Positions 30,892 to 54,467 of a stretch of 64,000 bases of DNA are shown piece by piece. The stretch spans positions 44,866 to 108,865 of the forward strand of contig VGJS01000008.1 of the NCBI GenBank assembly GCA_016867395.1, read 5' to 3'. The position numbers were made by a program, and so were the translations under genes. The notes beneath the pieces are model-generated. The model was not told the origin of the DNA and did not search any database. It saw only the letters and a program-made list of their open reading frames with translations. The first letter of the stretch is position 1, and each line of letters starts with the position of its first letter. Origin of the DNA: Candidatus Handelsmanbacteria bacterium. Lineage in GTDB: Bacteria; Latescibacterota; UBA2968; UBA8231.

Positions 30892-30920
30892 TTGACAGAA
30901 GCGTTGAAGCGGGGTATCTT
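30892..30920 (+). promoter_or_regulatory. Consensus sigma70 promoter of candidate sRNA
   Basis: TTGACA - 17 nt - TATCTT. Confidence 0.7.
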
Positions 30921-30926
30921 GCTCAG

Positions 30927-31047
30927 TGGAATTAAGAGTGACCTGAACTCACAGACGAATGCCCAAGAGGAAGTTTTCCACACCTATGGATGTGGAACTT
31001 CGACAGAAATATTCTCGGCATTCGGGTGGTTGGTCACTCTTTTTTTT
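30927..31047 (+). ncRNA. Candidate ~120-nt structured small RNA
   Basis: Promoter at 30892-30920; nested stems AAGAGTGACC/GGTCACTCTT, CGAATGCC/GGCATTCG and apical AAGTTTTCCACA/TGTGGAACTT; ends in T8. Confidence 0.6.
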
Positions 31048-31984
31048 GGCTCTCGTATAGCGCGACCGCAACACACAGATCCTGTACCGCTAGGCCGGTA
31101 AAGTAAGCCAGCCGCGGCCTGGCGGCGCCCAGCCGGCCGTCGGCCGCGTCCCCGATGGTCAGCACCTGCCCCGCGGCGTCGCGCGCCAAGGCGATCCGCT
31201 CCAGGCTCCCGCGTTCCCCCGCGTAGATGAATTCCCCCGACTGCAGCGCCTGTTCTGGATGGTCCACCAGCACGGGCAGTTCCTCCAGGATCTGGGGGGC
31301 CAGTTGCCGGGTGCGGCTGTCCCCAGCCATTACAGAGAGCAGGGTGCGGGGCCCCAGGTGAGCCGGGGTGAGGATGGGTTGCGGGGTAGGCACGGCAACC
31401 AGGACCGCATCGGCCCCTTCGAGGCACTCCTCCAGGGAGGCGGCCATCTTCAGCGGGGCCCGCAGCAGGGGGGCCAGGTCCCGGGCAAAAACCTCGCGGT
31501 TGGCTGCTTGGCGGCTGGTGGCGCGGATTTCGTGCAGGCCGAAGAGCTGGTCGGCAGAGCGGGCCAGGCAGCGGGCCACCCGGCCAGTGCCCAGCACCGC
31601 GGCGCAGTCCACCGGCCCCTGGGCCAAATACTTGATCCCCAGGGCTCCGGCTGCGCCAGTGCGCATGTCCGTGGCATAATCGGCGTCCATGCGGAAGTGG
31701 GCGCCCCGCACTAGGTCCTCCAGTTCTATATAGGCCCGCCGGGACCCCAGCTGGCCTCCAACCCCCGGTTCCTCCACGATGACCTTGCGCCCCTGGTAGC
31801 GGCCAGGCCAGAGGGCGGGCATCTCCAGGCGGAAGATCCCCCCTTCGAGGGACTGGCGGCGCGGCGGGTTGAGCAATACCCCCTGGCCCCAGAGGCGGAA
31901 TGCCCGGTCACAGGCAGCGAGGAAGTCGGCGGGGGAGAGCCGGGTGAGAAAATCCCCGTCGCTGAAAGTGGCGCTGGCCATCAC
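31034..31984 (-). CDS. Ornithine cyclodeaminase/mu-crystallin family protein
   Basis: RTGAAGALGIKYLAQGPVDCAAVLGTGRVARCLARS; DAVLVAVPTPQPIL. Confidence 0.88.
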   Translation of the reverse strand: MMASATFSDGDFLTRLSPADFLAACDRAFRLWGQGVLLNPPRRQSLEGGIFRLEMPALWPGRYQGRKVIVEEPGVGGQLGSRRAYIELEDLVRGAHFRMDADYATDMRTGAAGALGIKYLAQGPVDCAAVLGTGRVARCLARSADQLFGLHEIRATSRQAANREVFARDLAPLLRAPLKMAASLEECLEGADAVLVAVPTPQPILTPAHLGPRTLLSVMAGDSRTRQLAPQILEELPVLVDHPEQALQSGEFIYAGERGSLERIALARDAAGQVLTIGDAADGRLGAARPRLAYFTGLAVQDLCVAVALYESQKKE

Positions 31985-54109: not shown

Positions 54110-54467
54110 TGGTGGAGGCGGCGGGACTCGAACCCGCGTCCGAGAGCAGTTCCACCGGGCCGCTACGTGCGTAGTCGGTTTTTTAATCTCGCCCCCTGAG
54201 TCTCCAACCGACAAGATGCCCAGAGGGCCAGTTCAGTAGATCTCACCTACAGCCCCTGAACGGAAGCTGTTGGCCAGCCTGCTATAGGATGACACCGGTT
54301 CCAGCGGCGCAGGCACCACTAGTTCCAGTGGGTCGCCTAATTACTTAGGCGGCCAGTGCGTAGTTGTTATCGTTGGCGATTAAAGGTTTCCCAAAGTTTT
54401 TACGAGGCTTCGGGACCTCGGCACGCAACCCTAGCTTCTCCGTCCCCGTCGAAGCCAGATCGCCCCC
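54110..54467 (-). ncRNA. ssrA: Transfer-messenger RNA (tmRNA)
   Basis: 5' GGGGGCGATCTGGCTTCGACGGGGAC; 3' GGACGCGGGTTCGAGTCCCGCCGCCTCCACCA (minus strand); tag ORF ANDNNYALAA* at 54345-54377. Confidence 0.97.

Follow-up and report, generated by a model that had tools for sequence, protein, structure and literature searches.

Positions 30892 to 31047 of the 64,000-nucleotide stretch of Candidatus Handelsmanbacteria DNA analysed here (the window) comprise a promoter of the form TTGACA-17-TATCTT, a T8 tail and, between them, a rod-shaped RNA some 108 nt long. The locus is almost certainly a genuine small-RNA gene, substantiated in every respect but expression. The initial annotation had proposed an independently transcribed, structured small RNA at this place, and comparison with relatives bears the proposal out: promoter and terminator are conserved, the stems covary in 29 copies, 44 of 47 class genomes have the RNA, and its flanking genes vary. 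The features that define a standalone bacterial structured small RNA (its own promoter and terminator, a covarying structure, independence from its neighbours) are all found here. Taken as a whole, the locus probably specifies a trans-acting, protein-binding structured RNA, common to nearly all of one class.

The gene and its transcription signals

The -35 element TTGACA (30892-30897, + strand) stands at the same position in nearly all first copies of the RNA in family f1, that of the window, where the promoter reads TTGACA-17/18-TATNTT. A 17-nt spacer separates it from the -10 element TATCTT (30915-30920, +), exactly where the initial annotation had put this promoter. From this sigma70-type promoter, transcription would read into the gap, with a start predicted at about 30925-30928. 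The structured RNA itself (30934-31041, +) scores 114 bits against R1, a covariance model built from 26 aligned copies, and 104 bits against R2, a refined model built from 29 copies. Its closing stem and U-tract would form an intrinsic terminator (31032-31047, +), the 3' strand of the stem, GGTCACTCTT, running directly into the T8 tract at 31040-31047. A class I/II aminotransferase gene (PF00155) lies upstream of the RNA, and an ornithine cyclodeaminase (OCD) gene (Pfam PF02423), convergent on the - strand, ends at 31034, so that the terminator overlaps its last 14 nt (31034-31047). Both the stem leading into T8 and an overlap of about that size had been correctly anticipated.

The RNA region has a GC content of 47% vs 67% for the window. 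Folded alone, 30892-31060 reaches -56.8 kcal/mol (z -2.9), and 2 of 200 shuffles did equally well, a suggestive result for a predicted fold that is moderately better than chance. A chance fold is set aside because conservation and covariation in relatives are the decisive evidence.

Elsewhere in the class, first copies likewise carry a T-rich tail and a sigma70-like promoter, whose distance upstream of P1 is 5-44 nt, in most cases 5-25 nt. Most members of f1 use the TTGACA-17/18-TATNTT form, and most of f2-f4 have TTGAYN or TTGCGT with a TATATT-type -10 element. Because the -35 match in f2-f4 is weaker, and within the range of shuffled sequence in several genomes, the promoter call in these families rests on the common TATATT and its position. 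It may be added that in f2-f4 (L069-L073, L077-L082, L035-L039) many transcripts would start with an extra small 5' hairpin upstream of P1, for example GAAGCTTNNGCTTC or GGAGATTCGTCTCC, which is absent in family f1, window included.

Structure, covariation and conserved core

The RNA is a rod in which helices P1 to P5 follow one another from the closing stem to the apex (all coordinates on the + strand). P1 pairs AAGAGTGACC (30934-30943) with GGTCACTCTT (31032-31041); after an invariant UG bulge (30944-30945), P2 pairs AACTCAC (30946-30952) with GTGGTT (31026-31031), and P3 pairs CGAATGCC (30956-30963) with GGCATTCG (31017-31024). Beyond an asymmetric internal loop, whose 3' strand (31002-31016) opens with a conserved GACA(A/G) motif, the segment 30970-31001 holds the nearly invariant P4 (GAAGT/ACTTC), a bulge, P5 (TCCACA/TGTGGA) and a variable apical loop. 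The three nested stems of the initial annotation thus all lie where it had placed them, but its apical hairpin is not one continuous helix, being interrupted by a 2-nt bulge, and it had overlooked the short P2 helix and the UG bulge. The consensus over all copies retains this order: P1 (10-11 bp), the UG bulge, P2 (AAYNCAC/GTGNRTT), a small loop, P3 (GAATGCC/GGCATTC), the asymmetric loop, P4, a short bulge, P5 and the apical loop.

The suggested check, for conservation and covariation among related genomes, upholds this structure. Among 29 distinct copies, standard pairs fill 97.1% of the pair cells and 15 of the 32 pairs have changed on both sides. Doubly changed cells number 105, against 32.3 +/- 4.7 in 500 shuffles, none of which reached as high, and controls in which the partners were slid by 1-3 columns gave only 1-20; the 29-copy alignment was fitted to the structure, which makes these counts lean upward. 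An earlier MAFFT alignment of 26 copies (A1) yields the same helices, with 12 doubly changed pairs in its consensus fold. The lower helix (P1 and P2) shows changes on both sides in 8 of 16 pairs, with 99.1% of its cells paired, and P3 in 4 of its 6 consensus pairs.

The copies range from 96 to 118 nt in length. By consensus columns, the 5' strand of the internal loop has exactly 7 nt in all of them; across the 29 copies its 3' strand, with an AU content of 64%, has 13-17 nt, and the apical arm 10-14 bp. Sequence conservation is very uneven along the rod: identity is 100% in the UG bulge (29 copies), 94-96% in P4 and 28% in the apical loop. Within the 3' loop strand, the first six positions (of the GACAAA type) are 79% identical and the remainder 41%, and the unpaired conserved motif itself takes the forms GACAA, GTCAA and TACAA among families.

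Two further candidates were discarded upon reading the alignment. A CsrA sponge would not fit the only two conserved GGA triplets, neither of which is in a hairpin loop, both being part of a stem or next to one; and a conserved small open reading frame, judged by eye, does not fit the tolerated indels that are not multiples of three, nor the lack of a common start codon.

Distribution

The 4.9-Mb draft genome from which the window comes has one copy of the RNA. BLASTN against 59 relatives retrieved it from all genomes of the same genus (85-91% identity) and from nearly all those of the same family (73-80%), with weak matches in other families. Among 64 genomes of the phylum, R1 gave matches in 44 of the 47 that belong to the class (families f1, f2, f3 and f4) and no match in the other 17; R2, run with strict filters over 384 relatives, recovered the same 44 class genomes and nothing in the 337 outside the class, the genomes searched being drafts and the E-values of such home-made covariance models rough. 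The three class genomes without the RNA are draft MAGs (73%, 91% and 89% complete), and a laxer search of these three and of twelve phylum-mates gave nothing above chance. To judge from these searches, the RNA is nearly universal in one bacterial class and apparently restricted to it.

At the blastn level, a plasmid collection held no match to the RNA, and a search for related loci with the neighbouring OCD protein found none. A repeat or mobile element was rejected as an explanation, the RNA being single copy in the genome and the region free of repeats. Two loci call for separate comment. A decayed-looking copy at L076:3001-3115 (-) (G041:C34), scoring 26-32 bits, sits on a contig whose flanks resemble the locus of genus g6, in a genome of family f4, a case of either bin contamination or transfer. 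L077 and L078, on contigs C9 and C36 of G046, both show the same 6.1-kb stretch with the RNA, which is probably an assembly duplicate.

Gene neighbourhood

The genes next to the RNA change from lineage to lineage. Genus g1 has the convergent OCD gene; g3 has an Ig-like (ASH) secreted protein, with similar secreted proteins in g2 and g5; an hpt-type phosphoribosyltransferase gene and mutL are the neighbours in f3, prs in f2, and PhyH or RidA-like genes in f4. The upstream aminotransferase gene is common to f1 only. Since flanking genes differ between families, the RNA would be an independent, trans-acting molecule, not a leader, and a cis-regulatory role seems unlikely. To be sure, its terminator overlaps the convergent OCD gene in the window, and it lies just upstream of a co-directional gene in f3 (mutL) and f4 (PhyH), as a leader, an attenuator or a shared bidirectional terminator of the flanking genes might. 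Such a cis-acting element is nevertheless very improbable and, as far as sequence comparison goes, already contradicted: the neighbours vary by family (OCD, Ig-like secreted protein, mutL, prs, PhyH, RidA, ahcY), the RNA is convergent with some of them, it has its own promoter, and nearly every copy either ends in a terminator of its own or points at a gene's 3' end.

Second copies under a sigma54-type promoter

Seven genomes of genera g3, g5 and g6 (G006, G008, G009, G010, G014, G015 and G019) have a diverged second copy of the RNA. In six of the seven (loci L026, L031, L032, L034, L074 and L075) the sigma70 promoter of first copies is replaced by an exact sigma54 promoter, TGGCAC-N5-TTGC, which ends 11-17 nt before P1; the remaining one, in G006, has a degenerate 5' end without this promoter. 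The pattern is rare, with just 8 matches in the 943,516 positions of all fetched sequence, both strands included, a count equal to the six second-copy loci plus the two of them present twice in the set (L092, L093). The sigma54 gene rpoN was present in 15 of 15 genomes tested. In three genomes, from g3 and g5, the second copy is convergent with ahcY, the gene for S-adenosylhomocysteine hydrolase (L026, L074, L075), and the g5 second copies share a GC-rich terminator hairpin in place of the T-tail. In a small tree the second copies do not all fall together, so that there may have been one duplication or several. The first copy would presumably be constitutive and the second, in those members of f1 that have one, induced.

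Relation to 6S RNA and other known families

The initial annotation had pointed to a loose resemblance with 6S-type RNAs and to Rfam, 6S/SsrS in particular, as the place to look. The search of Rfam 15 (4227 families) was run and returned no family match at the locus at gathering score; at E<=10 only mir-584 appeared, a chance match of 17.4 bits vs a cut-off of 80. The distant copies gave only sub-cut-off, inconsistent matches to unrelated families. The 6S model RF00013 had no match at the locus (cmscan, E<=10), in its own genome or in the 47 class genomes, and with lax filters in 13 class genomes it gave only chance-level matches (E>=0.75).

Like 6S RNA (RF00013, SsrS), the class RNA is a standalone rod, closed by a stem, opened by an internal bubble and capped by an apical hairpin, and it sometimes comes in two copies under different promoters. 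Resemblance did not extend to membership. A 6S RNA is recognised by a match to its covariance model, by a closing stem, large central bubble and long apical arm, and by a length of about 160-200 nt; the class RNA has no such match, measures 96-118 nt, and has a 7-nt bubble strand, an invariant P4 sequence and an apical arm of 10-14 bp, where the 6S-like RNAs of sister families have 21 bp. These last are found in f5 and f9 as RNAs of 176-178 nt that align over the full length of the 6S model, below its cut-off (33.5 bits, E 4e-5 and weaker), at L098:1501-1676 (-), L099:1501-1678 (+), L100:798-975 (-), G063:C160:10125-10302 and G058:C53:2227-2404; they carry a conserved GAGGARUCC ... CGGACAACCACUG. 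A phylum-specific 6S model, R3, built from three of them, detected five genomes in f5 and f9 and had no match in the class, nor in f6, f7, f8 or f10. Detection of 6S RNA in this phylum is thus difficult, and these searches do not prove that the class lacks it.

Among lineage-specific RNAs, 6S-Flavo (RF01685), which its discoverers classed as a diverged 6S RNA of Bacteroidetes (PMC2864571), is similarly lineage-restricted and of similar length, its Rfam model having 108 positions. That model had no match in 17 of the 18 genomes tested and, in the other, a single weak one at another locus (21.2 bits vs a cut-off of 85). Ms1 is a phylum-specific RNA of Actinobacteria, where 6S was not detected, and is kept across many genera (PMC9130861); set beside it by description, the class RNA of 96-118 nt differs from Ms1, which has about 300 nt and binds the RNA polymerase core. 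Acido-1, Flavo-1 and Chlorobi-1 are lineage-specific structured RNAs that came from comparative genomics (PMC2864571). The class RNA is likewise lineage-restricted and a find of comparative genomics, but it belongs to no Rfam 15 family and has sigma70- and sigma54-controlled copies.

Identity with two housekeeping RNAs was also considered and dropped. A separate SRP RNA gene (RF00169) exists in 8 of 8 genomes tested (e.g. G000:C4:108335-108435), and the tmRNA (RF00023) of the genome sits at window positions 54110-54467 (-), with the tag peptide ANDNNYALAA.

Function

Protein binding is suggested by where the RNA is conserved. Its fixed parts are the GACAA side of the internal loop, P4 and the UG bulge; the apical loop, through which antisense RNAs usually pair, is free to vary. 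Both region-wise conservation and the constant geometry of the loop fit a protein-binding core better than antisense pairing through a loop. The RNA would bind a conserved protein and then sequester or adapt it. RNA polymerase, for which it would act as a 6S-like decoy, is the leading specific candidate for this partner. As a counterpoint, GACAA, being short, conserved and unpaired, could be a pairing seed instead, and the long conserved run around P4 could serve a function other than protein binding.

A special case of the protein-binding reading, in which the molecule would be the functional 6S RNA of the class, a shortened open-promoter mimic or decoy binding sigma70-RNA polymerase, is possible though rather unlikely. 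A sigma54-driven copy would then make repression conditional, in the manner of the paired 6S RNAs found elsewhere. The rod with its asymmetric, AU-rich internal loop and the near-universality in the class are in keeping with it, as is the failure of both RF00013 and the phylum-specific model to find a 6S RNA in the class while f5 and f9 have a diverged one; precedents are Ms1 of Actinobacteria (PMC9130861) and the 6S-Flavo RNA of Bacteroidetes (PMC2864571). It is difficult to reconcile with the small total length, the 7-nt 5' bubble strand, the lack of a covariance-model match and an apical arm that would probably fall short of the part of sigma that binds the -35 element. The strong primary-sequence conservation of P4 also argues against it, such conservation not being known as typical of 6S RNA, and, 6S having escaped detection in sister families f6, f7, f8 and f10 as well, the failure to find it in the class may be no more than a matter of low sensitivity.

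It is also rather unlikely, though this is the other serious alternative, that we are dealing with a base-pairing regulatory RNA, using the internal-loop GACAA(A) and the adjoining AU-rich stretch to bind mRNAs. A short conserved unpaired motif beside an AU-rich strand, a U-rich 3' tail, an independent gene and a sigma54-controlled copy typical of regulated small RNAs would all suit that role. Yet only some 5-6 unpaired nucleotides are conserved, and these differ among families; the apical loop is not conserved; conservation runs through the paired P4, which mRNA pairing leaves unexplained; and base-pairing small RNAs are seldom kept across a whole class. Finally, the inverted repeats, and a stretch TTTTCCACA that resembles a DnaA box, might evoke a palindromic DNA element (MITE, REP or DnaA-box cluster) instead of an RNA. 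The covariation contradicts this vanishingly improbable reading: compensatory changes occur throughout a single-copy locus with a strand-specific promoter and T-tail, and the DnaA-like stretch, which becomes TTTTCCGC in f3 and TTATTCCAC in f4, is not kept across families.

Few RNAs are retained by almost all members of a bacterial class, and those that are usually perform basic tasks, as do tmRNA, SRP RNA, RNase P RNA and 6S RNA; this one, missing from Rfam, is kept by selection on its structure and on a small invariant core. A single-copy locus with clean boundaries, together with the conserved core, makes it experimentally tractable, given a cultured member of the class. It is conceivable, if doubtful, that the class has here a ribonucleoprotein of a new RNA family replacing 6S as global RNA regulator of transcription, with housekeeping and sigma54-switched copies. 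Should it bind RNA polymerase, it would show that an unrelated and much shorter RNA is able to fill the role of 6S.
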